Of a DNA stretch of 23,581 bases, positions 3,079 through 18,910 are shown piece after piece. A program made the position numbers and the translations under genes. Origin of the DNA: a virus; the IMG/VR virus record IMGVR_UViG_3300044617_002188, positions 1 to 23,581 of that record; one strand, written 5' to 3'. Within the stretch, counting starts at the first letter, position 1; each line of letters starts with the position of its first letter. The notes under the pieces were generated by a model. It was given only the letters and a program-made list of their open reading frames with translations. It had not been told where the DNA came from and did no database searches.

Positions 3079-3582
3079 CTATGCAACATGTTTCCAGATA
3101 TGCTTAAGCACTATCTGGCTAATTAAACCTTGGCTGACTCCATAATTATTAGCCAGCTTAATAGTCGAGGTGTTACCTTCTGCGTACTCCGCTCGAATAC
3201 GGCGGACTTCGTTATCTGTTAACTTAGCTTTGCAGTTACGCACTCCTCTAGCGGCCGTTACTGCTCTTCTTCCTCGTTTGATCGTGTCTTGAGCGTTGTC
3301 GTAGTGAGTGCCTATATCTAAGTGACATGGGTTACAGCACTTGGGATTGTCACAGGCATGTCGCACTATCAGTCCAGAGGGAATAGGTCCTCTTGTGAGG
3401 ATCCAACTCAATCTGTGTGCACCGATATTCTTGCCTTCGTACTTAAGTATGGCGTAACCGCCTTTATGGGATATGGGCCCGAGCCATTCCCAGCAGACGT
3501 CTACCATGCTGACATCTACACGCCCCCAGTATTTGTAAGCGTTGATCCCTAGATGTTGTGCTGAAAGTACAGGGTCAGTCAT
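3079..3582 (-). CDS. HNH homing-type endonuclease with C-terminal HTH
   Basis: 167 aa. An HNH nuclease core spans about residues 28-105: WEWLG, then GAHRLSW, then VRHACDNPKCCNPCHLDIGT with H75, N84 and H87 as likely catalytic/metal residues, followed by DNAQD and RGR. Residues about 117-167 form a helix-turn-helix (AKLTDNEVRRIRAEYAEG; LANNYGVSQGLISQI) ending WKHVA. The gene is clearly AT-richer than its neighbours. Start at 3582 shares ATGA with the upstream stop; a longer frame to 3675 reads as noise. Homing endonucleases nick or cut a target to spread their own gene; this one is free-standing between two genes. Confidence 0.9.
   Translation of the reverse strand: MTDPVLSAQHLGINAYKYWGRVDVSMVDVCWEWLGPISHKGGYAILKYEGKNIGAHRLSWILTRGPIPSGLIVRHACDNPKCCNPCHLDIGTHYDNAQDTIKRGRRAVTAARGVRNCKAKLTDNEVRRIRAEYAEGNTSTIKLANNYGVSQGLISQIVLKHIWKHVA
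3562..3582 (-). repeat. Direct repeat flanking HNH insertion, copy B
   Basis: Minus strand: ATGACTGACCCTG, TA, CTTTCA, forming the first codons of the HNH gene. It matches copy A at 3050-3068 except for the two-base insertion, giving near-identical borders about 514 bases apart. Confidence 0.7.
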
Positions 3583-3836
3583 TCGCCTAGGTGGATGAGG
3601 TGAGCTTCGAGGTACTCTTGCACGGAGCGGAGGTGGGAGCGCATCACGTCTCTTTGCGTGGTGGCTTGGGGCCACGCGCCGGGACCGGCGACGTAGTAGT
3701 CCCTCGCGTTAATTTCGATCTCGTTGAAGGCGCGGATGGCGTCTTGCAGGGCGCGGTAGGCGTTGAAGTAGCCCTCAGAGAGGGTGGCGCGGCTGGTGCC
3801 GTTTAGATGAACAGTGGGAAGGGTGAGGTCAGTCAT
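3579..3836 (-). CDS. Conserved-looking hypothetical protein (85 aa)
   Basis: Starts MTDLTLPTVHLNGTSRATLS. The pattern H-L-N-G-T-S near the start followed by helical Y-x-x-A-x-x-A-L-x-x-A and a central R-D-Y-Y is reminiscent of a small protein often seen in phages and plasmids of several bacteria, whose function I do not know. The ATG at 3836 overlaps the upstream stop (ATGA), and its stop overlaps the HNH start. Confidence 0.75.
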   Translation of the reverse strand: MTDLTLPTVHLNGTSRATLSEGYFNAYRALQDAIRAFNEIEINARDYYVAGPGAWPQATTQRDVMRSHLRSVQEYLEAHLIHLGE

Positions 3837-4071: not shown

Positions 4072-4356
4072 TCAGTAAGAGATGTGCACGGAGGCGATGC
4101 CGTCTAGGGGGACGCCGAGGCGGTAGGCGGCGCCGGCGCTGAGATCCAAACTTGCGCAGTCGCAGCGGTCGGTGATGGGCACCGTGAGGGTGCGGCCTCG
4201 GTGGGAGACGCGCACTCGGGTGCCGCAGGGGAGCCAGGGATGGGCGGCGCTGACGCCCCAGTGCTGGTAGGTCTGGCCGCAATAGGTGATGCGGCCGTGA
4301 TAATAAGAGTGATAAGTAGTAGCTGTTACTGGCCTAGTGTGGCCAGTTAACTGCAT
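4072..4356 (-). CDS. RlpA-like double-psi beta-barrel domain protein
   Basis: 94 aa, almost only the domain. Residues about 14-94 follow the RlpA/expansin DPBB pattern: TTYHSYYHGRITYCGQ (like the S-W-Y-G start), then SAAHPWLPCGTRVRVSHRGR, then VPITDRCDCASLDLSAGAAY and RLGVPLDG. The Asp of TDR and the D-L-S motif, conserved in DPBB barrels, are present. RlpA proteins bind or cleave denuded glycan strands in peptidoglycan. No signal peptide is visible, which is odd for an envelope role. The start ATG at 4356 overlaps the HNH gene by 23 bases, so the insertion may have removed an earlier start or leader. Domain call is good, role uncertain. Confidence 0.75.
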   Translation of the reverse strand: MQLTGHTRPVTATTYHSYYHGRITYCGQTYQHWGVSAAHPWLPCGTRVRVSHRGRTLTVPITDRCDCASLDLSAGAAYRLGVPLDGIASVHISY

Positions 4357-4945
4357 GTTTAGGAGCAACGTGCTTCCAAGTATTCCCGCTAAGTGCTTGG
4401 TATAGCGCCCTGTGGCTAACACCGTACAGCCTAGCCAAGCTCCCAATAGGCGCCCCTGGCTCCCAGGACAAGCGAAGTTGCTCGACAACTTCAGCGTTGA
4501 GTTTCGCCGAGGGACTATCCTCGCCTTTGACCGCTCGTGGTGGCACATAGTCAACAGATGAGATAAGATGCTGTGAGTTTTCTTGATAAGTAACCCACTC
4601 CAGGTTTTCGACGCGGTTGTCATAACGGTCTCTGTTTTTGTGATTAACACAGGGCTTGTTATCGGGATTAGGAATGAACGCAAGGGCTACAAGTCGGTGT
4701 ATGTAAAAACGAGTGGAGTCCGGATGGTCGAATAGCGAAACGCCTAGGTACCGGCCAGACTGTTTCGGTGTAATTATCCGTCCTTTGTGCGAGCGCTTAA
4801 TACCCGTAAGCTTGTCTACTACGAATCTGTCTAGCGCTCTAACTTGTCCAGCACTAGAGACCTCGTATAAGTGAGCGTACCTTGGTATTGGTACAGCCAA
4901 CCATTCAGGTTTGGCAGTTCCAGGCGTGAGAGTGAAGCGGCGCAT
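4334..4945 (-). CDS. NUMOD4-HNH homing endonuclease
   Basis: 203 aa. Residues about 14-70 resemble NUMOD4 (EWLAVPIPRYAHLYEVSSAG), then an HNH_3-type core: IHRLVALAFIPNP with H83, VNHKNRDRYDNRVENLEWVT with H102 and N110. Residues about 145-192 form an HTH (AKLNAEVVEQL; LARLYGVSHRALYQAL) ending WKHVA, the same ending as the 3079-3582 endonuclease. It is AT-rich against the GC-rich operon, a sign of transfer. Start ATG at 4945 shares TGATG with the upstream 53-aa gene. It is free-standing and probably targets phage DNA nearby. Confidence 0.92.
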   Translation of the reverse strand: MRRFTLTPGTAKPEWLAVPIPRYAHLYEVSSAGQVRALDRFVVDKLTGIKRSHKGRIITPKQSGRYLGVSLFDHPDSTRFYIHRLVALAFIPNPDNKPCVNHKNRDRYDNRVENLEWVTYQENSQHLISSVDYVPPRAVKGEDSPSAKLNAEVVEQLRLSWEPGAPIGSLARLYGVSHRALYQALSGNTWKHVAPKHAVNWPH

Positions 4946-5106
4946 CAGTCCTCCAGCGGGGGGAGTGCGGCGATGAAGCCCTGGATCCAGGTGCCAACGT
5001 CCTCAGGGGCGAGGAATGAAGGGACTCCACGGCGGCCATCCACTTGAACGGCAAGGCGTGGCTCGGTGCCGTGCTCGCGCACGACTTGAAGGGTGATGAT
5101 GCGCAT
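4945..5106 (-). CDS. Small hypothetical protein (53 aa)
   Basis: MRIITLQVVREHGTEPRLAV to IAALPPLED. Beta-strand-rich N-terminus, then APEDVGTWIQGFIAAL as a helix. It lies four bases after the upstream gene and its TGA overlaps the HNH start (TGATG), fitting the operon. Function unknown. Confidence 0.65.
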   Translation of the reverse strand: MRIITLQVVREHGTEPRLAVQVDGRRGVPSFLAPEDVGTWIQGFIAALPPLED

Positions 5107-5110
5107 GGGG

Positions 5111-5305
5111 TCAGCGGTTGTAGAAGTAAGAGCCGGGGGCGAAGTCCTCGAGGATGTGGTTGAAGGCGTTCTCGAGGCGGCGCTTGTTGCTGGGGTCGGC
5201 GACGTACCAGGCGGCGGCGAGGGCGCGGCAGAAGCCGCCGCCGTGGCGCTCCATGGCGGTGACGGTGTGGTGGAGCTCGGTGGGGGAGAGGGCTGTGAGG
5301 CTCAT
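5111..5305 (-). CDS. Small hypothetical protein (64 aa)
   Basis: Starts MSLTALSPTELHHTVTAMER and continues GGGFCRALAAAWYVADPSNK, ending FAPGSYFYNR. The pattern of a helical body with a Gly-Gly-Gly-Phe turn and an aromatic tail looks like a structured small phage protein, but I cannot name the family. ATGA overlap with the upstream gene. Confidence 0.75.
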   Translation of the reverse strand: MSLTALSPTELHHTVTAMERHGGGFCRALAAAWYVADPSNKRRLENAFNHILEDFAPGSYFYNR

Positions 5306-5646
5306 TGCAGGTACTGAGTGGTGAGGGCGACGTAGACGGTGGGGGAGTCGGTGGCGAGGCCTTCGGCCTGCTCGCGGAGTTGGGTTTTGCGGAGGGCCTC
5401 CATGGCGGCCTCGGTCTCGGGGGTGTAAGTCCAGCGGTGGCGAAGTTTGCGGGTGACGATGAGGTCGCCCTGCTCGATGCGGTCGAGGTCGAGGCGCTCC
5501 ATGCGGTCGCAGAGCCAGGTGCGGTGAGCGGTGAGCTCAGCGGTGATGCGCTGCGATTGGAGTTGCAGCTCGTGGGCTGCGGTGAGACGGCGGCCGATGG
5601 CGCCGGTGGGGCTGTAGGTGCGGGTTGTGCGGGTGGGGTTACGCAT
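5302..5646 (-). CDS. Hypothetical protein (114 aa)
   Basis: Start taken at ATG 5646 (MRNPTRTTRTYSPTGAIGRR); a TTG at 5664 in frame is possible. The centre is strongly helical with many Arg, Leu and Gln (AAHELQLQSQRITAELTAHR) and may be a short coiled coil. No motif recognised. It opens a sub-block after a 60-base gap and its stop overlaps the next start (ATGA). Confidence 0.7.
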   Translation of the reverse strand: MRNPTRTTRTYSPTGAIGRRLTAAHELQLQSQRITAELTAHRTWLCDRMERLDLDRIEQGDLIVTRKLRHRWTYTPETEAAMEALRKTQLREQAEGLATDSPTVYVALTTQYLQ

Positions 5647-5706
5647 CTGCGTGAGGTTTAGCAAGGATCGGTGAGGAGCGCAAGGAAGTTAGCAGCTTTG
5701 CTGCAG

Positions 5707-5913
5707 TTAGTGCGGATCTTCCACGTAGTGGTTGAGGGTGTAGGGCTGCGCGCGGGTGGCGTACTCGATGAGGAGGGGCTCGACCTCGGTGGGGTCCTCC
5801 ACCCAGTGCTCGTGTTCGAGGTCGGCGGAGAGGAAGTGCCAGACGCGGATGGGTGGAGCGTCGGGCTCGGGGTCGCGGGGGGAGAGGGGGCGGGGATCGG
5901 GGGTGTCGGTCAT
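5707..5913 (-). CDS. Small acidic hypothetical protein (68 aa)
   Basis: Starts MTDTPDPRPLSPRDPEPDAP: a Pro/Asp-rich N-terminus, then a folded-looking HFLSADLEHEHWVEDPTEVE and ends HYVEDPH. ATG at 5913 overlaps the upstream stop (ATGA). Strongly acidic; small acidic phage early proteins often bind host proteins, but nothing here shows a target. Confidence 0.65.
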   Translation of the reverse strand: MTDTPDPRPLSPRDPEPDAPPIRVWHFLSADLEHEHWVEDPTEVEPLLIEYATRAQPYTLNHYVEDPH

Positions 5914-6101
5914 GGGCCTGTGTAGAGGGTGGGGGTGGGGCGCAGTGTGTCGCTGGGGCGCTGGTAGCCGTAGTCGACGGTCATGGCGGCGAGGGCCAGG
6001 CCGAGGCACAGTCCGGCGATGTGTTCGGCGCGGACCCAGGGAGGGGTGGGGCGGCGGGGGCGGGTCATGGTGGTGGTGGTGGTGCGGGGTTTGCGGGTCA
6101 T
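5910..6101 (-). CDS. Small single-pass membrane protein (63 aa)
   Basis: Basic Thr/Arg-rich N-terminus (MTRKPRTTTTTMTRPRRPTP), then a hydrophobic stretch at about residues 27-45 (IAGLCLGLALAAMTVDYGY) long enough for one membrane helix, then a polar tail. By the positive-inside rule the N-terminus would be cytoplasmic. ATGA overlaps at both ends. Function unknown. Confidence 0.6.
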   Translation of the reverse strand: MTRKPRTTTTTMTRPRRPTPPWVRAEHIAGLCLGLALAAMTVDYGYQRPSDTLRPTPTLYTGP

Positions 6102-6817
6102 GTGTTGACGTAGGCGGCGCCGACGCCGTGGGCTTCTACGAAGATGTCGGTCTTGGCGCCGTCGCAGAGGCGACAGGTAAGGCACTGCGCTTGCGAGTCG
6201 GCGGCGGTGGCGGGGCAGAGCTTGCCGCTGTAGGGGGCGTCGCCCTGGGGTACGACGGCAAAGGTGCGCCAGCCCATGTCAGATGCGGCGAGGTAGTCGG
6301 CGAAGGAGTCACAGCTCGCTTGGAATAGACCGCGGCACCATTGCGCCCAGTCGTGGCGCCACTGGTGGCTGTAGCCGGTGTGGCCGTCGGCTAGGGCTGT
6401 CAACGTGCGAACGACGGACTCGGTGAGGATGGCGGGGTCGCCATAGGCACCCCAGCGGATGCGGCGGCCGCGGATATAGCGGGCGTGTAGAGCGGGGTCG
6501 TACTCGGGGTAGGAGCCCCGGGTGAGGGCGCGGTAGACGCTGCCGACGCTTTTGCCTACGTCGACATAGCAGGAGCGCACGTAGCGCTGCAGTTCGTCAG
6601 ACCAGCGACGGCGGTGCGGGCAGTCACCGCAGATGGTGCGGTCGGCGCCAGACGCGATGGCCTCCAGCGGAGGCACGTCAGGGCGGAGGATGAAGACTTG
6701 GCACATGTTGCCGGTCTTGGCGTTCTCGGATTGGAGAACAAGCACGGCGATGTAGGGCTCGCCGTCGATCGGGGAGAGACCGCGATCGACGATGAAGCCG
6801 CGAAGTTTGCGGGACAT
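6098..6817 (-). CDS. Conserved phage protein with Cys-rich motifs (239 aa)
   Basis: Starts MSRKLRGFIVDRGLSPIDGE. Hallmarks: SENAKTGNMCQVFIL, then TICGDCPHRRR, RSCYVDVG, VYRALTRGSYPEYD, RIRWGAYGDPA, and a Cys cluster near the C-terminus (QCLTCRLCDG). I recall phage and plasmid proteins with the same G-D-C-P...C-Y-V...R-G-S-Y-P order, of unknown function; I cannot verify a family number. The cysteines could bind zinc or an Fe-S centre (inference). Stop overlaps the membrane-protein start; 75 bases separate it from the upstream gene. Confidence 0.8.
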   Translation of the reverse strand: MSRKLRGFIVDRGLSPIDGEPYIAVLVLQSENAKTGNMCQVFILRPDVPPLEAIASGADRTICGDCPHRRRWSDELQRYVRSCYVDVGKSVGSVYRALTRGSYPEYDPALHARYIRGRRIRWGAYGDPAILTESVVRTLTALADGHTGYSHQWRHDWAQWCRGLFQASCDSFADYLAASDMGWRTFAVVPQGDAPYSGKLCPATAADSQAQCLTCRLCDGAKTDIFVEAHGVGAAYVNT

Positions 6818-6892
6818 GCTGTCTACAGCTTGTGGGAAGGGGCGAGGCGCCCAGGGAGCCCGCCCATAGAAGGGGTGGAGCTCATTGGCGGA

Positions 6893-7075
6893 TCAGTAGG
6901 CGTTGAATGCGTCTTCGGGGATGCACTCCTCGATGTGGAAGGTGCAATCCGGATGTCGGCGGGTTAGGCCGGCTAGTTCCAGCACGACATCGGCACGGCT
7001 CCACCCCCAGATGCCGGTGGGGGCAGTGCGGGTGCCGAGCTCGTCGGTGATGGTGCAGATGATTTCGTAGGTCAT
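6893..7075 (-). CDS. Small hypothetical protein (60 aa)
   Basis: MTYEIICTITDELGTRTAPT then IWGWSRADVVLELAGLTRRH and a C-terminal FHIEECIPEDAFNAY. A strand-helix-strand pattern suggests a compact alpha/beta fold. ATGA overlap with the upstream gene. An alternative longer frame over 6882-7136 is Pro/His/Arg-rich noise. Function unknown. Confidence 0.7.
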   Translation of the reverse strand: MTYEIICTITDELGTRTAPTGIWGWSRADVVLELAGLTRRHPDCTFHIEECIPEDAFNAY

Positions 7076-7275
7076 GGCTTGCGGCGGGCGAGTTCGTCGG
7101 CGTAGGTGAAGGCTTGGTCCTCGTAGTAGCCCTCACGAATGGGGTTGCTATGGCGCAAGCCGGCCGCCGCGGAACGGCAGTCGGCGATGACGTAGCGCAG
7201 GGAAACGGTGCAGAGGGTTTCTGCGTGGCTCCGCCATTTGGCGAAGTCTTCGGGGGTGGCGTACTCGGGGCGCAT
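7072..7275 (-). CDS. Small hypothetical protein (67 aa)
   Basis: MRPEYATPEDFAKWRSHAET followed by a helical body and a basic end (ADELARRKP). Two bases after the upstream stop, ATGA into the next gene, so it belongs to the operon. No motif recognised. Confidence 0.7.
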   Translation of the reverse strand: MRPEYATPEDFAKWRSHAETLCTVSLRYVIADCRSAAAGLRHSNPIREGYYEDQAFTYADELARRKP

Positions 7276-7277
7276 GG

Positions 7278-7619
7278 TCAGTTACCGAGGTAGAGGTAGT
7301 CGTAGGCGCCGGGTTCTTCGGCGCAGTTGCACGCCCAGATCCACAAGACGCGCTTGCGGTTCTCGTTGTGGTTGGCCAGATCCCGGGCATCCCATGCGCC
7401 GAAACCGCGCAGGTACTCGCGGAAAAGCCAGGCGGGGCCGTCGAAATCGAGGCGGTCCACCCATGCGGATACGTCTTCGTCGCGGTCGCCGGATCCGGAG
7501 CAGTCACAGACGCACTCGGGGGGCAGTTGCCGCAGGGATTCGCGGCCGTGGAACCAGGTGTTGCGGTACATAACGAGGGTGCGGGGTAACCGGTTCGGGA
7601 ATGAGTCAGACAAGCTCAC
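7278..7619 (-). CDS. Hypothetical protein (113 aa)
   Basis: Starts MSLSDSFPNRLPRTLVMYRN (ATG 7619); a second ATG at 7571 is possible. It contains two Cys groups, PPECVCDCSGSGD and WIWACNCAEE, and many Trp and Asp residues (WVDRLDFDGPAWLFREYL). The Cys pairs could hold a metal. It overlaps the upstream gene by 14 bases. Function unknown. Confidence 0.7.
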   Translation of the reverse strand: MSLSDSFPNRLPRTLVMYRNTWFHGRESLRQLPPECVCDCSGSGDRDEDVSAWVDRLDFDGPAWLFREYLRGFGAWDARDLANHNENRKRVLWIWACNCAEEPGAYDYLYLGN

Positions 7620-7887
7620 GGAGATGTTCGAAGCCGGGTACTTCGTGAGCCCACTTAGGGCCGGGGAGGTTGCGCTTCAGCTCCTTGTACAGGCTCACGG
7701 TGATGTCCATACGTTCGGCGAGGTAAGCGCACTCGCGCCAGATTCCGGGCACGGCAAGGTGGCCGGCGTAGCCCTCGTCCCACGCGGCGACACGGGCGGC
7801 CACAGGGAGATCCTCGTCGACGAGGACGTACAGACGGCGCGGGTTGCCGTCGGAATCGTTGCTAGCGCACAGGTGTTGGAAAAACAT
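7606..7887 (-). CDS. Hypothetical protein, first gene of the left operon (93 aa)
   Basis: Start at ATG 7887 (MFFQHLCASNDSDGNPRRLY) with a GTGAG about 10 bases upstream; an in-frame TTG at 7920 would add 11 residues. Alpha/beta pattern with LYVLVDEDLPVAARVAAWDE and AVPGIWRECAYLAERM. No family recognised. It is the promoter-proximal gene of the leftward operon, behind a leader of about 540 bases if transcription starts at the nearest candidate promoter (8436-8465). Confidence 0.7.
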   Translation of the reverse strand: MFFQHLCASNDSDGNPRRLYVLVDEDLPVAARVAAWDEGYAGHLAVPGIWRECAYLAERMDITVSLYKELKRNLPGPKWAHEVPGFEHLRELV

Positions 7888-7938
7888 GCTGAACTCACAG
7901 CTAGAGGGATAGAGATGCAAAGCACCTCAGCCAAAAGA

Positions 7939-7963
7939 CCCCCGGACGCAGTGCGCCAGGGGG
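7939..7963 (-). terminator. Possible intrinsic terminator or attenuator in the leader
   Basis: Read leftward: CCCCC, an imperfect GC-rich stem-loop with two mismatches, GGGGG, then TCTTTT. The T-tract is short. It lies about 50 bases upstream of the first gene of the left operon and downstream of the three tandem promoter-like elements, so it would act on their transcript. Confidence 0.35.
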
Positions 7964-8435
7964 AACTTCTGGGGGAGATGGTTTGTGCCCGGCAGAGCCG
8001 TGTGCCGGGGCTTGGCCGTCCTAGTGAAGCCGGAGCGGCGGGCTGCCCTATGGGCGTATCTGCAGTCCGGGCGTTAAGGGGCCGGTGCACCCGCTGTGAT
8101 CCCTGTCGGGAGCAGCGTTGATCCCCCTGCAGCAGCGGGATCGGTAAAAACACATGCAGTGCGCCCTCCTGCAGGAGGTTCCGCGTTCGCTTGCTTGCCC
8201 CCAGCCATCGGGTACTGGTCGCCTCACCCTCTATCGCCAGCTGTTACGGCGTTCGGGTATCTCGGCGACGGTCCTCGTGCTCGGTGTGATCCGAGCAGGC
8301 CGTCCGTGAGGTGCAAGAGCTAGCGCCCAGTCAGTTTGGGCGCACTGCTGCTATAGCTCCGGGATCCGCCCGGCCGGCCGCGCTTTATCGGCTGCGCTGT
8401 TGCGCTTAATGCATTGGTGGTTCTGAACTGAAGGA

Positions 8436-8724: not shown

Positions 8725-8782
8725 GGTGTGTCGAAAGTTGAGTCCAGCCCTGCGTCGCAGTGAGACTGGGCTAGAGGTGGAT

Positions 8783-9511
8783 ATGTCACATCCTGGGCTA
8801 GAAAAACTGTATATAAATAAAAGTTGTAGGGGGGTATGCTTGTGGGGTACCTCAGAGACCTGTATGCCTGCTCAGACATACCAGCGCTGCCTTCCGCTTA
8901 CCGATGTGCACTACGCGCTCAATAGGAAGGGAGCTCCACGCCCCATTCCACCAATAGTTGAAGAGCTGCTCGAGATATCTAGTACATCGCCTTCGGGCCT
9001 TGTTTGGAAAGTCGCTAGTAAAAATGGTAAAGCTAAAATAGGTGAACCAGCTGGTTCAAGAAGCGGAGCAAAATGGTTAGTGTCTGTGCGGGGACATGGA
9101 TTATTTTATGCCCATAGGATTGCGTACTACTTAAAAACGGGTCAAAATCCAGGTAGTATGGTAGTCCGGCACATAGGAAAAGAAGAACTAGCGCTAGGAT
9201 GGCAAGACGATAACGGACGAGATGAAAGCGGAGTAGCTAAGAGTAGACGGAATAAAGACTGCGTATCCCCGCAGGAACAAACAGTGCGCATAGCTGCATC
9301 TAGGGTGCTACGTAGTAAAAGACCTGTAGTAGGTCACGTAACTAAAACAATGTACCTGTATCAGGGAGTACTGTATAATGCTAAGAGTTTGTGCAAAGAA
9401 TTAGGACTAAATTACTCTACAATCTATCAGCGAGTGTATCGTTGTAAGCACACAGGTGTATACGCTTTTGCTATGGAGGGCATAGAAGTAGAAGAATTTA
9501 CTGTCTGGTAG
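8783..9511 (+). CDS. Degenerate HNH-like homing endonuclease relative
   Basis: 242 aa from ATG 8783, which has a good Shine-Dalgarno (AGAGGTGG) six bases upstream; ATG 8864 is the alternative. The core GLVWKVASKNGKAKIGEPAG, then YAHRIAYYLKTGQ (H111) and VVRHIGKEE (H130), then DDNGRDES follows the cyanophage HNH layout, but the usual N-P-x-x-H-L segment between the second His and the D-N is missing, so a key Asn and metal His are absent. The C-terminal part (MYLYQGVLYNAKSLCKELGL; STIYQRV) looks like a NUMOD1/HTH DNA-binding module. Strongly AT-rich against its surroundings. It ends one base from the end of the sigma factor gene. It may bind DNA without cutting, or be decaying. Confidence 0.75.
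   Translation: MSHPGLEKLYINKSCRGVCLWGTSETCMPAQTYQRCLPLTDVHYALNRKGAPRPIPPIVEELLEISSTSPSGLVWKVASKNGKAKIGEPAGSRSGAKWLVSVRGHGLFYAHRIAYYLKTGQNPGSMVVRHIGKEELALGWQDDNGRDESGVAKSRRNKDCVSPQEQTVRIAASRVLRSKRPVVGHVTKTMYLYQGVLYNAKSLCKELGLNYSTIYQRVYRCKHTGVYAFAMEGIEVEEFTVW
8812..8819 (+). promoter_or_regulatory. TATAAATA late-promoter-like box
   Basis: TATAAATA stands in an AT-rich island (TGTATATAAATAAAAG). This equals the T4-type late promoter -10 box, also reported for cyanophages; no good -35 box is seen. It would start transcription near 8826, favouring the ATG at 8864 as the translated start of the HNH-like gene. Confidence 0.35.
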
Positions 9512-11798: not shown

Positions 11799-12475
11799 GC
11801 GCGGGACCGGGTGAAGCGTTTGATGCGAGCCTCGAAGTGCTGCATGTACTGGGTGAGCTTGCGGAGCGAGAGCTCTTCGATTTGAGGTGTTTCGTCGGGG
11901 ATAGCTACGACGATCAGCGCTCGGGTGATATTTAGGCCTTGTGGTTTGTAGACGTAATTAGCGGCGGCGGTGTAAGCAGCAACTTGCAGAGAGTATTCGT
12001 ACATCTTTGCTGGGTTGCGGACTTTATCGGCTGTTTTCCAGTCCAGCAAAGAGGGCTGTTCACCATCGTCCTCTAGATAAGCGATGCAGTCGAACGTGCC
12101 GGCGTAGCGGAGCGGGTGGTAGATAGCTCCTTCGCAGACGAGAGGACGGCGAATGCGGTCGAGGAAGCTGCGCGTGCTGTTCCAGTAGGGCGTGTTGAGA
12201 AAGTCGAAACCGGGCTCGGTGCCGTCGAGTAGGTAGCGCTCAACAGCGTCGTGGTGGCGGGTGCCGCGGAAGCTGGCGAGGTTGCAGATGAAGTCTGCGC
12301 GGGCTTCACCGACGGACTCGCGCCAGGCTTGTAAGCCGGAGCTATCGCGGGTGCCGCTCAGGATTGTGGTAACGGAGCTGCAGGATCCGAGTGGTGTGGA
12401 GTAGCTGCGTTCACCGTTCTCGTGGGAGCGGACTGGTTCGTACTTGGGTAGGCCGCGGATGAGGTCAGCCGTCAT
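11795..12475 (-). CDS. PD-(D/E)XK exonuclease (RecB/Cas4-like)
   Basis: 226 aa. Motifs in order: FRGTRHHDAVERYL (His75 region), VCEGAIYH (E115), AGTFDCIAYLED (D129), SLLDWKTAD (D145-x-K147), and YSLQVAAYTAAAN (Q164-x-x-x-Y168). This is the RecB-type PD-(D/E)XK nuclease core, as in phage exonucleases and Cas4. It would degrade DNA ends, probably for host DNA breakdown or recombination during replication. No Cys cluster of the Cas4 Fe-S type is present, so the phage exonuclease assignment is preferred. It overlaps the XRE gene by 11 bases. Confidence 0.88.
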   Translation of the reverse strand: MTADLIRGLPKYEPVRSHENGERSYSTPLGSCSSVTTILSGTRDSSGLQAWRESVGEARADFICNLASFRGTRHHDAVERYLLDGTEPGFDFLNTPYWNSTRSFLDRIRRPLVCEGAIYHPLRYAGTFDCIAYLEDDGEQPSLLDWKTADKVRNPAKMYEYSLQVAAYTAAANYVYKPQGLNITRALIVVAIPDETPQIEELSLRKLTQYMQHFEARIKRFTRSRA

Positions 12476-12698
12476 AGGGGACGCCCTCTATGGGTAGGAG
12501 CAGCGCGTTGGCGTCGCAGCGGAAGACACGCATGAGATCGGCGAGAACGTTGGGATCGATCAGCTTGGTTTTGCCACTGGCCATGCGACCAAGGGAGTAG
12601 GGGGATATGCCAGAGGCTTCGGCGACATCGCGCAGTGTTAGCCGGGTGCGGAAGAGATGGAAGCGAATGTTGCGTCCGAGCAGCTGTGTGGTGTCCAT
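12465..12698 (-). CDS. XRE/Cro-CI family HTH regulator
   Basis: 77 aa; residues about 8-66 form an HTH_3 domain: LGRNIRFHLFRTRLTLRDVA, EASGISPYSLGRMASGKTKL, then the helix DPNVLADLMRVFRCDANALL. Single-domain, the size of Cro-like proteins. It starts 13 bases after the T-tract of a strong terminator, so it is expressed by read-through or a promoter not seen. It is the only Cro/CI-type gene in the window, so a candidate binder of the inverted repeat at 13401-13420 (inference). Confidence 0.85.
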   Translation of the reverse strand: MDTTQLLGRNIRFHLFRTRLTLRDVAEASGISPYSLGRMASGKTKLIDPNVLADLMRVFRCDANALLLPIEGVPYDG

Positions 12699-13529: not shown

Positions 13530-16283
13530 ATGGACAAAGAGCTCAATGGCAATAGCTCGGATCTCTTAAAGGGGCGAGCTATCGAATTGCTGCGACGTGA
13601 TGTATTTCCAGATGGATGGGCTTTTGTGCCAGTTGCGGGAAAAGCCACCTTTGTAAAGGAGTGGAGCACTAAGCCGTTGACGCGGATTGAGTGCATGACG
13701 GCCTACCAGCTCAGGCAGGAATACGTAGGCCTGGGTGTGGTGACAGGTTCGTTCTCGGGGGGACTCATCGCCCTCGACATCGATGGACCTGACGCCGATC
13801 AGCGCTATCGCGAAGTGGCGGGGCCGGAGTACGAGGTCTATGGCGAGGAGCGGACCATGTCGTGGACTTCGGGTAAGCCCGGGCGTCGGCAGATCCTGTA
13901 TCAGGTACCCAAGCGTTTGGTTCCCGAGCTCGGGGATGTGAAGACCTTGATCCTGCGCACGGACGATGGGCAGTGGCACCTGGGGCATGGGGATACAAAC
14001 CGGGGTGCCGGTGGTGATGTGGACGCGATCAGTGGGGCTGCCTACGAAGAGGTGGTGCTGCGGTTCAACGCCTGTCAGAGCGTGGTCCCTGGCTCACCAC
14101 ACCCGGAAACAAAGCAGCCCTATCGGTTCCTCAACTACAACGGCGGAAAGGTAGAGACGGCACCGCAGTGGGTGCTGGATGTGCTGCGCCCACATCGGAA
14201 GCCGGTGCAATGGCTGTCCGAGGCTGAGCAGAAGGAGGTGATGAGCGAGCTCGGGGGGCAGACAGCTGTCCCGCCACGTCAGATCCGTGGGTGGTTTTTC
14301 AAGGAGGAGGTGCAGTCGCTGCTGCGGCCGCGGTTGGCTGATCTGGTGTTCAACCACGAGGTGTTTGACCGGTACGGGTGGAAGAGCCGCGGTGGAGATA
14401 AGCCCCAGCGCATGAGCGGCTGCCCGTGGCATGGGGGGCAGAGCGGGACGACATTCCAGTACGCGGAAGAGACCGGTTGCTGGGACTGCAAAGCGTGTGG
14501 TGTAGGTGGTGACGTGCTCGATTTCGTCCACAAGATCCGCACCAAGGACATGCACGCTGGGCGTCCGAGTGGGCCCGCCCTCGAGGCCTATGTGGCGGAG
14601 CTGGCCGTGGAGCTGGGGTACGACTACCCGGCGTGCGCAACGGCGACCGAGGTCACCATCAAAGATGCGCCGCTGAAACGGCTATCGGGGCAGGAGTTTT
14701 TCACGGCAGCCGAGAAGATCATCAACGGGTACGACAATGCCGAGCTCGCGCATTACCAGTTGATGGAGCTGGTGCGGGACTCAGGGCTGACACACGTGTA
14801 CAAGTCGGGGCCGCAGGTGGAGTCAGCGCTCGAGCGGTTCCTGCTGCACCAGGAGCAGGTGGAGGAAGACCCGCAGTGGCAGGAGAAGATGCGCGGGCAG
14901 CGGGACTACCTGATCCCGGACTTTGTGTCGGCACCGAGCTCGATTCTCTTGCACGCAAGGGGCGGGATGGGTAAGACACGCCTTGCAGTGCTGCTGGCCA
15001 AGATCGTGGGCCAGAAGCTGCCGATGAAGGTGCGGGGGCTGACGGTCGAGCCGACGGTCTCGGGGAATGTGCTGTTCATCGGCAACGACATGTCGATGAC
15101 GGACTATGCGGAGTACCTGGATCAGCAGGGGATTGACTCGACCGGTGCCGATACCTGGTTCCGATTCAAACCGCAGTGGCAACAAAGCCAGTACAGGGTG
15201 CTCTTGCGGTGGCTGCAAGAGCTCAAGCCAGTACTGGTGGTAGTCGACTCACTCACGTCGGTGAGCACGATGATTGCGGCCAAGGAGTACGAGAAGGAGT
15301 ACTCGAACACGCTGTACCGCTTGGCGCGGGAGAACGGGACGGCGTTCCCGCCGACGACGTTTCTGTGGATCCACCACAACACCAAGGACGGGACGAAGTT
15401 CCGCGGCACAGACACGCTGCGGAATGCGGTGCACGAGACCTGGGAGCTGAAAGACCTGACGGACGAGGAGCGCGCTCAGTACGGGGATTATGCGCTCATC
15501 CTCGAAATCGACAAGAGTCGGGGCATGCGGGGTGGGGATCGCTTCCTGGTGCAGGAGGACATTGAGGAAGCGCTGAGCATTGAGGATCTCACCCCGACTG
15601 TGACCCGAGAGAACGGTGGGCAGGGCGATGAGACGCCACGGACGATCGTTCTCGGGATCCTCAAGGAAGCGGAGGCGCCGATGACAGCTAAGGAGCTGCG
15701 CTACGCGCTCAACAGCCGGCTGGCAGGGCGTAGGGGACCAGGGACGATCGTCAGTGAGAAGACGGTTAAGCGGTGGGCGCAGCGGTGGGTTGTTGCCGGC
15801 CTCGTGGAAGAAACCCGGGTGCGACAGCCGGGACAGAAAGGGGGGCGCCCTCTGGTGGGTTTTTCAGTCAAAGCCCCTATATACGAGGGTCGGAGTGTCC
15901 AAAACCCTCCTTCTTTCTTTGGGACTCCTTGTGCTGGAGGGGATTTGGGTTTTGGACAGGGTCCAGACGAAATTGTCCAAAACCCCAAAATGTCCAAAAC
16001 CTCCGAGGTCGAAACAGTTCAGCAAGGCACAGTCTCAGATGCGACGCATGAGACCGAGCTGCCTGTGGAAACTTTTGTGGAAAACGTTGCCGAAATGCCC
16101 CTAGAGGTTTCGGACAGTTTCGGACACACGGAGGGGTTGTCCAAAACCTCCGAGGCTGAAACCCTCTCCAGCACAGCGGTTTCGGAAAAACCGCCGGAGG
16201 TTTTGGACACGGCCTCGGAGATATATGGGACCCCCGGTTCTACGCAGGACTACGGAGATTGGGAGGACACCGATTGGGGTTGA
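13530..16283 (+). CDS. Primase-polymerase / helicase fusion
   Basis: 917 aa. N-terminal archaeal-type bifunctional primase-polymerase (about 20-200): GLGVVTGSFSGGLIALDIDG with D83 and D85 as the D-x-D metal site. A CHC2-like zinc finger follows: C298PWH301 and C320KAC323. Then a RecA-like ATPase/helicase: Walker A RGGMGKTR (K482), Walker B VLVVVDSLT (D573), and WIHHNTKDGTKFRGT. A winged helix lies at about 715-785 (TAKELRYALNSRLAGRRGPG; TVKRWAQRWVVAGL). The last 120 residues are low-complexity and encoded by DNA carrying iteron-like repeats. It would prime and unwind DNA at the fork. Starts at ATG 13530; followed by a convergent small gene and the polymerase. Longer than typical prim-pol helicases because of the tail. 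Confidence 0.92.
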   Translation: MDKELNGNSSDLLKGRAIELLRRDVFPDGWAFVPVAGKATFVKEWSTKPLTRIECMTAYQLRQEYVGLGVVTGSFSGGLIALDIDGPDADQRYREVAGPEYEVYGEERTMSWTSGKPGRRQILYQVPKRLVPELGDVKTLILRTDDGQWHLGHGDTNRGAGGDVDAISGAAYEEVVLRFNACQSVVPGSPHPETKQPYRFLNYNGGKVETAPQWVLDVLRPHRKPVQWLSEAEQKEVMSELGGQTAVPPRQIRGWFFKEEVQSLLRPRLADLVFNHEVFDRYGWKSRGGDKPQRMSGCPWHGGQSGTTFQYAEETGCWDCKACGVGGDVLDFVHKIRTKDMHAGRPSGPALEAYVAELAVELGYDYPACATATEVTIKDAPLKRLSGQEFFTAAEKIINGYDNAELAHYQLMELVRDSGLTHVYKSGPQVESALERFLLHQEQVEEDPQWQEKMRGQRDYLIPDFVSAPSSILLHARGGMGKTRLAVLLAKIVGQKLPMKVRGLTVEPTVSGNVLFIGNDMSMTDYAEYLDQQGIDSTGADTWFRFKPQWQQSQYRVLLRWLQELKPVLVVVDSLTSVSTMIAAKEYEKEYSNTLYRLARENGTAFPPTTFLWIHHNTKDGTKFRGTDTLRNAVHETWELKDLTDEERAQYGDYALILEIDKSRGMRGGDRFLVQEDIEEALSIEDLTPTVTRENGGQGDETPRTIVLGILKEAEAPMTAKELRYALNSRLAGRRGPGTIVSEKTVKRWAQRWVVAGLVEETRVRQPGQKGGRPLVGFSVKAPIYEGRSVQNPPSFFGTPCAGGDLGFGQGPDEIVQNPKMSKTSEVETVQQGTVSDATHETELPVETFVENVAEMPLEVSDSFGHTEGLSKTSEAETLSSTAVSEKPPEVLDTASEIYGTPGSTQDYGDWEDTDWG
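15896..16209. repeat. Iteron-like cluster of TGTCCAAAAC repeats; candidate replication origin
   Basis: Direct copies at 15896-15905, 15974-15983, 15991-16000 and 16138-16147; inverted exact copies (GTTTTGGACA) at 15949-15958 and 16200-16209; inverted one-mismatch copies (GTTTCGGACA) at 16107-16116 and 16117-16126. The copies at 15991 and 16138 extend to TGTCCAAAACCTCCGAGG. They are read in different frames of the primase-helicase gene (V-Q-N at 15896 and 15974, S-K-T at 15991 and 16138), so the conservation is at DNA level. Confidence 0.7.
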
Positions 16284-16293
16284 TATTGCGCTC

Positions 16294-16515
16294 TTAGCCC
16301 TGGCGCCAGGGGAGCTCGTCATCGAGCTCGGCCTGGTAGCTGGGGCTGGGCCCCAGGGTTGTTTCGCGGAGCAAGAGTGTTGCTATGAAGCTGCGCGATG
16401 TGAAGTGAGACTTAATGAGACTCTTAGCTAGAGCTTTTAGCTCTGCTACATTGGTACAATCATCGATCTGCCTTAGTGCTGCTTCTTGAGCAAAGCTAAG
16501 AGTAAGGTCGTCCAC
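16294..16515 (-). CDS. Small hypothetical protein (73 aa, GTG start)
   Basis: Starts GTG at 16515: MDDLTLSFAQEAALRQIDDC, then AELKALAKSLIKSHFTSRSF and ends DDELPWRQG. The pattern L-T-L-S-F-x-x-E-x-x-L-R-Q followed by a helix is loosely like cyanobacterial NblA-type small proteins, which tag phycobilisomes for breakdown, but the match is weak and I would not name it so. It is convergent with the primase-helicase and divergent from the polymerase. Two GAGACT half-sites (16405-16420) fall inside it. Confidence 0.55.
   Translation of the reverse strand: MDDLTLSFAQEAALRQIDDCTNVAELKALAKSLIKSHFTSRSFIATLLLRETTLGPSPSYQAELDDELPWRQG
16298..16346. other. Cluster of palindromes at the convergent gene ends
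   Basis: CCCTGGCGCCAGGG (16298-16311), then GAGCTCG-TCAT-CGAGCTC (16312-16329, 7-bp perfect stem), both in the 3' end of the leftward small gene just past the primase-helicase stop. No T-tract; could still slow both transcripts. Confidence 0.4.
16452..16460 (+). promoter_or_regulatory. Extended -10 promoter candidate for the polymerase gene
   Basis: TGGTACAAT fits the extended -10 form (TGn-TATAAT). No clear -35 box. It lies 79 bases before the polymerase ATG. Confidence 0.3.
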
Positions 16516-16538: not shown

Positions 16539-18488
16539 ATGCCGTCCGATGAATCCCTTGCTCACAAGGAAGCTTTAGATAATGTGGATTTCGACTTCAT
16601 TCGTGGTCCACAGGCTGCGGCATTGCTGACACGGCGCGTTTCCGAGCTCGCGGAGGCAGTGGGTCCGCTGGGCGTGGATACAGAGACCACTGGCCTGGAT
16701 CCACTGGTGAATCGCGTGCGTCTCATCCAAGTCGCAAGTTGCGACTATGCGTTGGTGGTCGATGTGGAAGGTTGGCGCACCGAGGGCGGGCGGCAGCTGC
16801 CTTGGGATGCACCAGGGCTACGTCAGCTGAAGGCGCTGCTCGAAGGGCCAAAAAAGAAGGTGCTGCAGAATGCTGCATTCGACTTGAACTTCCTAGCGGG
16901 GGAAGGTGTCGAGCTCGGAGGATCGATCTTCGACACGATGATCGCCGCCAAGGTGGTCAACAACGGCACAGGGGCAAAAAACGACCTGGGGAGTCTGGTA
17001 AGCCGTGTGCTGAAGGTGCCGCTGCCTAAGGAGCTGCAGAAGGCCAACTGGGCAGGGGAGATCTCGGATGAGATGGTCCGCTATGCCGCCCGGGACGCGG
17101 TGTGTCTACCGAGGATGGTGCCCTCACTCGTAGCAGCGCTGAAGGAGGCAGAGGTCTCGCCCTCGGTGACGCTGTGGGACATCTTCAAGCTGGAGATGAT
17201 GGCGCTTCGGCCCATCGCTCGGATGCAGTGGAACGGGTTTGGATTTGATGCGGTGTCTGCCGCAGCGCTGCAAGTCTCATTGCAAGACAATGCTGAGACG
17301 CTTAAGACGACATTCCTCGAGGCGTTGGATCTGGCGATCAAACAGGAGAAGCCAGATGAGCCGGCGGTGTGGCTACCGCGGGATGAGGACGGGGCCTTAA
17401 ACACACGGGAGAAGGACTCGGGGTCGATCCGCGCTGGAACCAAGCGCTACAAGGGGTTCAACCCGCGCTCGCCGAAGCAGATGGCGGAGCGGTTTGAGCA
17501 GGCGGGCATTCTGCTGCCACCGGACGAGAAGGGAGCACCGAGTTTGGATCAGAACCTGCTGGCGTTTCTGAAGGGGGAGTACGAGCTCGTGGCCATGTAC
17601 ATGGAGTGGAAGGCGGCTGTAACCCGGGTGTCTCACATTGAGAAACTGCTGGATTCGATTGGACCGGATGGGCGGATCCATGCGGGGTACCGGCAGATGG
17701 GGACAGAGACGGGCAGGCTGAGTTGCTCAGGTCCGAATCTTCAGCAAGTACCGCGGGAGGGGGAGTTTCGGCGCCTGTTTCGCGCTCGTGAGGGTTACAC
17801 CTTGGTTGTGGCTGACTTCAGTCAGGTGGAGCTGAGGGTGGCCGCGGAGCTATCTGGTGAAGAGCGCATGCTGGAGGCGTACCGAGCTGGGCGGGACTTA
17901 CACACAGAGACCGCGGCTTTAGTGACAGGTAAAAGTGCTGATACTATTACGAAGAAAGAGCGTACTTCTGCGAAGCTCTGTAATTTCGGGCTTTTGTATG
18001 GGGCAGGTGCTGCTACGTTAAGGAAGCAAGCTGTTGCACAGTATGGTGTAGATATGGAGCTAGAAGAAGCCCAGGGTCTTGTTACTGGGTTTCGTGAAGC
18101 GTATCCCCAGCTTTATGAGTGGCAGATGCAAGAAGGCAATAAGACTACGCGCGCTGTATTTACTAGGTATGGTAGGCGTAGGATACTGACAGGCTTTAAT
18201 GATAAATACACTACGCGAATCAACACGCAAGTGCAGGGTACAGCGGGTGACATCGCTAAGATTGCCATCGCGATGATATGGGACAACATAAAAGCGGCTA
18301 AGCCAGAGGAAGCGATGCTTATTGCCATGGTGCACGACGAGATCGTTCTCGAGGTTGAGGATGGGGTAGTGGAGAAGTGGGCGAAAACATTAGCCGGAGC
18401 TATGGAAGCCGCGGGTTCGGTAGTTTGTCAGTTGGTGCCTATCGTGGCGGAAGCTTCTTTTGGTAGTAGCTGGGCCGATGCCAAGTAG
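16539..18488 (+). CDS. DNA polymerase I, family A, with 3'-5' exonuclease
   Basis: 649 aa. Exonuclease (DnaQ-like) at about 40-200: GVDTETTGLDP (D47, E49), NAAFDLNF (D115), YAARD (Y182, D186), so proofreading residues are intact. Polymerase at about 350-649: TGRLSCSGPNLQQVP, motif A VVADFSQVELR (D426), motif B RTSAKLCNFGLLYG (R475, K479, F483, Y487), QVQGTAGDIAK, motif C MVHDEIVLEV (H599, D600). F483 corresponds to E. coli Phe762, where T7 has Tyr. No 5'-3' exonuclease domain, as usual in phages. From about 17925 base composition and codon use become clearly AT-richer through the fingers and palm. It is the replicative polymerase, next to the primase-helicase. Confidence 0.97.
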   Translation: MPSDESLAHKEALDNVDFDFIRGPQAAALLTRRVSELAEAVGPLGVDTETTGLDPLVNRVRLIQVASCDYALVVDVEGWRTEGGRQLPWDAPGLRQLKALLEGPKKKVLQNAAFDLNFLAGEGVELGGSIFDTMIAAKVVNNGTGAKNDLGSLVSRVLKVPLPKELQKANWAGEISDEMVRYAARDAVCLPRMVPSLVAALKEAEVSPSVTLWDIFKLEMMALRPIARMQWNGFGFDAVSAAALQVSLQDNAETLKTTFLEALDLAIKQEKPDEPAVWLPRDEDGALNTREKDSGSIRAGTKRYKGFNPRSPKQMAERFEQAGILLPPDEKGAPSLDQNLLAFLKGEYELVAMYMEWKAAVTRVSHIEKLLDSIGPDGRIHAGYRQMGTETGRLSCSGPNLQQVPREGEFRRLFRAREGYTLVVADFSQVELRVAAELSGEERMLEAYRAGRDLHTETAALVTGKSADTITKKERTSAKLCNFGLLYGAGAATLRKQAVAQYGVDMELEEAQGLVTGFREAYPQLYEWQMQEGNKTTRAVFTRYGRRRILTGFNDKYTTRINTQVQGTAGDIAKIAIAMIWDNIKAAKPEEAMLIAMVHDEIVLEVEDGVVEKWAKTLAGAMEAAGSVVCQLVPIVAEASFGSSWADAK

Positions 18489-18501
18489 AGCTTTGTGTGA
18501 T

Positions 18502-18522
18502 ACGCTGTTTTCGTAGCGTTTT
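18502..18522 (+). terminator. Weak terminator-like hairpin after the polymerase
   Basis: ACGCT, 8-base loop, AGCGT, then TTTT. The short stem makes it a possible attenuator before the cyAbrB gene rather than a full stop. Confidence 0.3.
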
Positions 18523-18529
18523 ACCACTC

Positions 18530-18910
18530 ATGCTCACTGGGCAAGACCTGCTTTCATTTGTGAAAGCCAATGCGGACATGGATCAAGCCGAGCTAGCTCG
18601 CGAGGCTGGCTACGTGCGCAATACGGATAAGGGTAATGAGCGCTTGCTCATCGGTAAGTTGCACGAGGCACTGCTTGAAGCTAAAGGTGTAAAGCTGAAA
18701 ACCAGCAAGAAGCCTGGTAAAGCAGCGCAGTTTATGACTACCGTCCATCGTAATGGTGTGATTTTGGTAGGCAAGACGTACTCGGAGAAGTTTGGTGTGG
18801 AGCCGGGCGATGAACTGCAGATCGTGATCGAGGATGATGCAATTCGGCTTGTGCCTCAATCTGCAGCGAGCGTGAAAGCCTCCAGTAAGTCTGTGGCTGT
18901 GGCTGGTTGA
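18530..18910 (+). CDS. Cyanobacterial AbrB-family transcription regulator (cyAbrB)
   Basis: 126 aa from ATG 18530. The N-terminal part MLTGQDLLSFVKANADMDQA, EAGYVRNTDKGNERL and HEALLEAKGVKL follow the cyAbrB-specific region; the C-terminal AbrB domain is TTVHRNGVILVGKTYSEKFG, then VEPGDELQIVIEDDAIRLVP. In cyanobacterial hosts cyAbrB proteins control carbon/nitrogen balance, hydrogenase and redox genes by binding DNA as oligomers. On a phage it could reset host metabolism or control phage genes; the sequence does not say which. It lies between polymerase and lysis genes, and its TGA overlaps the next ATG (TGATG). The upstream in-frame start at 18497 gives non-homologous residues and is rejected. 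Confidence 0.9.
   Translation: MLTGQDLLSFVKANADMDQAELAREAGYVRNTDKGNERLLIGKLHEALLEAKGVKLKTSKKPGKAAQFMTTVHRNGVILVGKTYSEKFGVEPGDELQIVIEDDAIRLVPQSAASVKASSKSVAVAG

Follow-up and report, generated by a model that had tools for sequence, protein, structure and literature searches.

A repeat array in a cyanophage primase-helicase gene, probably bound by the encoded winged helix and a likely replication origin

The primase-helicase gene and its repeat array

The window analysed here is the whole 23,581-base virus record IMGVR_UViG_3300044617_002188 (positions 1 to 23,581). On its plus strand, a gene at 13530..16283 encodes a primase-helicase of 917 aa for which Pfam searches and a structure model gave the order Prim-Pol, zinc ribbon, RepA-like helicase, winged helix (wHTH) and variable tail. 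The Prim-Pol domain occupies aa 28-214 (13611..14171; PF09250, E 1.1e-13) and is followed by a zinc ribbon at aa 295-340 (14412..14549), whose match to PF01807 scored 22.8 bits, slightly below the Pfam cut-off of 24.9. The RecA-fold helicase core at aa 454-621 (14889..15392) matched PF13481 (AAA_25, 6.4e-10) and the structure of RepA. For the model of aa 385-797 the best PDB match was the hexameric helicase RepA of RSF1010 (1nlf, Foldseek rank 1, E 7.6e-10, TM (target) 0.65), although the RAD51 and KaiC folds came close behind, so that the assignment to RepA is not exclusive. A winged-helix domain follows at aa 703-780 (15636..15869), which places a helicase and a C-terminal winged helix in a single chain according to both Pfam and the structure models. 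The AF2 model of aa 690-797 (H-H-H-E-E) consists of three helices and a two-stranded wing, with a pLDDT of about 90 in the helices and a moderate overall confidence (pLDDT 75), and it matches the PDB winged helices of PerR/Fur, PadR and RTP. The tail beyond it is variable and of low complexity, with some recurring peptides (SVQN, LSKT).

The neighbouring genes include those for an XRE protein (12465-12698), a phage DNA polymerase (polA, 16539-18488) and an AbrB-like protein (18497-18907). Between the primase-helicase gene and polA lies a 73-aa ORF on the minus strand (16294-16515) with a weak PHROG match of unknown function (E 0.0023). Elsewhere in the window, three HNH_3-like endonuclease ORFs were found at 3079-3675 (-), 4334-4945 (-) and 8726-9511 (+), one of them with a NUMOD4 motif; these are probably free-standing homing endonucleases.

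An earlier note on this DNA, made from the letters alone, had described eight copies of the 10-mer TGTCC(A/G)AAAC in the 3' end of the primase-helicase gene. Our recount agreed: eight copies lie at 15896-16209, four per strand, six of them exact and the other two (TGTCCGAAAC) each with a single mismatch, starting at 15896+, 15949-, 15974+, 15991+, 16107-, 16117-, 16138+ and 16200-. When the entire 23,581-base record was searched for TGTCCRAAAC, no copy was found beyond the array. The even scatter that the same note had named as counting against its reading is absent, and a cluster of a short unit sits at a replication gene with none elsewhere, as in iteron-type origins. With two mismatches allowed, the count over the whole window was not above chance (16 against 12.4 expected) and not informative; the signal lies in the clustering of the exact and one-mismatch copies.

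An 11-mer, TGTCC-AAAACC, describes the repeat better. In these terms, sites 1 (15896..15906), 3 (15974..15984), 4 (15991..16001) and 7 (16138..16148) on the plus strand and sites 2 (15948..15958) and 8 (16199..16209) on the minus strand read TGTCCAAAACC, while site 5 (16106..16116, -) reads TGTCCGAAACC and site 6 (16116..16126, -) reads TGTCCGAAACT. Among 12 lineages with the window's unit, the first 10 bases of site 1 and the 10-mer of site 8 are invariant, and site 6 is the least conserved. Seven of the eight sites lie on a common helical face, the exception being site 3. We propose the whole array (15896..16209, not assigned to a strand) as an initiator-binding region and candidate origin.

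Arrays in related loci and selection on the DNA

Relatives were collected as 72 viral loci and then as 80 through a profile search, with many contigs in common, and nine further loci came from Cyanobium, Vulcanococcus, Synechococcus and uncultured cyanobacteria. One long relative encodes a portal, a terminase, a head protease and a tape-measure protein, indicating that at least part of the group consists of tailed cyanophages or their prophages. The 10-mer was found in exact form 93 times in 14 related records that total 496,989 bases, and each record had all its copies in a single cluster of ~315 bp. Motif finding returned a repeated unit for each of the 71 distinct tails; most stood well above shuffled tails, with a signal near the shuffled level in a few (e.g. 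L044, L060, L130 and L154). Clusters lie within the tail, or immediately 3' of it, in almost all of the 71 distinct relatives, and the 11-bp unit is specific to each lineage. The right half of this unit may be AAAACC, GTAAAT, GTTCAT, ATTGCT, TTTGCT, ATCGTT, GAACCA, GCACTG or another sequence, and the left half is mostly a constant TGTCC, replaced in a few lineages by TGACC, TGAGC, TGTCG, TGTCA or GGTAA.

The architecture of the arrays is also shared. Site orientation mostly alternates (+ - + - + -) across lineages, and centre spacings of 41/32/38/31/42 bp are common to several lineages with differing units. The sites are phased at 10.25-10.5 bp, with a mean pairwise cosine of 0.24 compared with 0.02 +/- 0.025 for random placement. 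Two Vulcanococcus limneticus contigs from the same host genome (L152 and L153) carry differing versions of the gene together with the units TGTCGCTCGTT and TGTCCCTCGTT, a difference that would be expected if coexisting elements require distinct origins.

Given that the tail is low in complexity and that the peptides SVQN and LSKT recur in it, the repeats could in principle be a by-product of a repetitive protein. The use of reading frames argues otherwise: the earlier note had remarked that the copies fall in different frames, and over all lineages every combination of strand and frame was indeed found. In L033/L041, site 1 is shifted by one base and encodes other residues, and in L047 and L150 the array follows the stop codon and is noncoding. 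Comparison of the tails across relatives, which the earlier note had suggested, covered 12 lineages that share the unit of the window: identity at third codon positions was 0.94 within the sites, against 0.69 for the remaining tail and 0.58 for the helicase. With third positions conserved mainly within the sites, all frames in use and some arrays noncoding, we rejected a protein-level repeat, whose probability we consider negligible, and the suggestion that selection acts on the DNA is supported.

Covariation of the repeat unit with the winged helix

In the window, the recognition helix is encoded at 15756..15797 (+, aa 743-756) and the wing loop, RQPGQKGGRP, at 15822..15851 (+, aa 765-774). 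We compared these elements with the repeat units of 50 distinct genes representing 27 motifs, controlling for helicase divergence. The left half of the unit correlated with the recognition helix (partial Mantel r 0.76) and not with the wing (-0.13), whereas the right half correlated with the wing (partial Mantel r 0.69) and not with the recognition helix (-0.12); p was 0.0005 for both positive correlations, in a permutation test that removes relatedness only partly. A correlation was also present between the right half and helices 1-2 of the wHTH (partial r 0.55). In a nearest-neighbour test, the nearly invariant left half brought no gain. These values make the recognition helix the proposed reader of the TGTCC half and the wing loop the proposed reader of the AAAACC half.

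Loci left out of this test were L130/L131 (CCGAGG) and L039, where the motif finder picked composition repeats, and L060/L073, L128, L151 and L158, whose units are unclear; L150 was also left out of the distance test. Manual alignment was used for the units of L034 and the L069-L072/L078 clade, and the result holds without that clade. L130/L131, L060/L073 and L128 then served as held-out cases. Their wings predicted the unit in four of five loci (L130/L131 and L060/L073), which amount to two independent cases; the prediction failed for L128, where the recognition helix differs too and the unit appears to start with TGATA. Several helix backgrounds that differ considerably from one another combine the wing K-GGRP with AAAACC, among them those of L150 and L047, the latter with a protein 49% identical to that of the window. 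Similarly, QR(R/K)P pairs with GTTCAT, K(A/T)P with ATCGTT, and (S/A)DKP mostly with (A/G/T)TTGCT.

Close relatives provide natural exchanges of these elements. Over most of their flanks, L020 and L023 share about 93-100% identity, which drops to 51-76% in the stretch with the wing and the sites. They have the same recognition helix and differ in the wing (GGQKGGRPCTGF versus PEGKKGHPWTAF) and in the right half of the unit (AAAACC versus GTAAAT). The pairs L064/L076, L059/L053, L129/L148 and L119/L131 likewise have near-identical flanks and differ mainly in the wing and the sites. The backbone of L148 resembles that of L129 (96% upstream, 94% downstream), and its cassette is closer to L063 (88%) than to L129 (68%); a combination of an L129 backbone with an L063-like cassette points to recombination rather than drift. 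The converse is seen in L034/L035, where the wing motif KGGRP is retained together with AAAACC while the recognition helix and the left half have changed. Reader and sites lie only about 100 bp apart, and for this reason they appear to be exchanged together by recombination.

Of the three candidate binders named in the earlier note, namely the primase-helicase itself, its winged helix and the XRE protein, the winged helix is the one supported. Both the XRE and the AbrB-like genes are nearby in many relatives, so the sites might belong to either protein. However, both proteins are identical in L020 and L023 despite the differing repeats, the unit tracks the wHTH, and the two genes occur in only part of the loci (XRE in 45 of 71, AbrB in 51 of 71, some loci being incomplete). 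We therefore rejected XRE as the determinant and AbrB as the binder, and regard ownership of the sites by either protein as highly improbable. The covariation and the exchanges support the winged helix of the primase-helicase as the part that determines the unit. Taken with the selection on the DNA, the covariation of both halves and the swaps make it very probable that the primase-helicase itself binds at the repeats.

We give about an even chance to a broader reading, according to which this cyanophage initiator family would read its origin by a two-part modular code, with swaps of a ~300-450-bp cassette of wing and sites changing replicon specificity, probably under selection against competing or cross-reacting origins in co-infection. 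In the exchanges described above, the proposed specificity element of an initiator and its DNA sites move jointly within a single recombination cassette, so that questions about replicon incompatibility among co-infecting phages become directly testable. The 27 motifs also constitute a natural library of matched winged-helix/DNA pairs, including near-isogenic switches, from which recognition rules for wing and helix are derivable.

The array as a candidate origin and its known counterparts

In related viruses the repeats change in step with the part of the enzyme that matches them, so that the virus very probably starts its own replication at this cluster. On these sequence comparisons, our explanation, given with good confidence, is that the phage's own primase-helicase binds at the array and that replication most likely originates there; as in the earlier note, the origin function is something we infer. 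The C-terminal winged helix would bind each 11-bp unit, its recognition helix reading TGTCC and its wing reading AAAACC, a step with strong though indirect support. Several subunits may settle on the sites, which mostly alternate in orientation and are approximately in helical phase, and this would place the hexameric helicase on the array DNA; the strands would then open and the helicase thread on, and the fused Prim-Pol could prime for the phage DNA polymerase of the adjoining gene (16539-18488).

Cumulative GC skew, a check proposed in the earlier note, gave no support: no reversal was seen at the array in the window or in four longer records (L014, L021, L025 and L040). In these five records the skew is essentially of one sign whatever the gene strand, G-rich on the coding strand of the primase, and might reflect a single leading strand for the whole genome. 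Nor was an AT-rich unwinding element consistently placed across lineages. An adjacent element of this kind is common, although not universal, at iteron-type origins.

The lack of a skew reversal and of a clear unwinding element would fit a role of the sites in control instead of replication start, be it autorepression, copy number/incompatibility or regulation of the DNA polymerase gene that follows. The covariation fits such binding equally well, and polA is located 330-643 bp downstream of the array. Nevertheless, the protein is a primase-helicase and not a repressor, the array lies 3' of the wHTH codons and not at the promoter of the gene, its place is unchanged in lineages with an intergenic array, and characterised analogues with such a layout are origins (PMC7581432, PMC4488673). 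A purely regulatory function is thus unlikely in our judgement, and an origin is the preferred reading. The array offers a candidate origin that is defined and testable, in cyanophages that are largely uncultured. No published description of these arrays came up in our literature searches, which covered open-access papers.

Cyanobacterial plasmid replication proteins (CyRepA1 family, DUF3987 proteins) resemble the window protein in their N-terminal Prim-Pol region, which could be aligned, whereas no alignable helicase or wHTH was found in them. In a search of a phage collection only S-LBS1 matched, and by Prim-Pol alone. Short repeats occur at the 3' end of several of these genes or soon after it: 12 copies of TGTAGACA/TGTCTACA within the final ~600 nt of a DUF3987 gene (5001-8114) on Planktothrix agardhii plasmid p2 (L160); six copies of GTAGACAA, likewise in the 3' end of a primase-type gene, in Tolypothrix (L162); four alternating copies of AATGGGCT at 256-349 nt past the primase gene of a Crinalium plasmid (L161), spaced by 33/27/33 bp; and 11 copies of AGGTTAGG on both strands at 38-373 nt past the primase gene of S-LBS1 (L163), with one block recurring at a distance of 254 bp. 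No clear repeat cluster was seen for S. elongatus CyRepA1 (L159) or L164.

Among characterised systems, the origin of phage lambda similarly has iterons within the coding sequence of its own initiator, gene O (PMC4488673). However, lambda O acts in initiation only and recruits the helicase through P, whereas the window protein joins primase and helicase in one chain; the binding domain of O is N-terminal and the proposed reader of the window is C-terminal; and the lambda origin has four 19-bp iterons beside an AT-rich element, in contrast to 11-bp units in both orientations and no AT-rich element found (PMC4488673). SaPI Rep and SCCmec Cch2 are also helicases with a C-terminal DNA-binding domain, which recognises short repeats directly downstream of their own gene (PMC7581432). 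They belong to other helicase families, have no Prim-Pol in the chain and use an intergenic origin, while the window has a RepA-type RecA-fold helicase and its sites are mostly intragenic.

Primase and helicase are likewise joined in one protein in pRN1 ORF904 and phage P4 alpha (PMC4234260). ORF904 also shares a C-terminal winged helix and a similar domain order with the window protein, but it has an SF3 helicase and an origin formed by a ~100-nt stem-loop without iterons, and P4 alpha differs by its bacterial Toprim-type primase (PMC4234260). The helicase domain of the window protein is AAA_25, an RSF1010 RepA-like RecA fold, and not the SF3 or other AAA+ domain of the SaPI Rep, P4 alpha and pRN1 families; by analogy, the protein may work like these self-loading initiators, and we do not file it as a member. 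RSF1010 itself also has a hexameric helicase of the RepA type, a primase function and an iteron-binding function, distributed over three separate proteins (RepA, RepB' and RepC; PMC4234260) instead of the single fused protein of the window. The fusion of Prim-Pol, RepA-type helicase and wHTH, together with the proposed two-part code of wing and helix, is what distinguishes the window protein from known systems.
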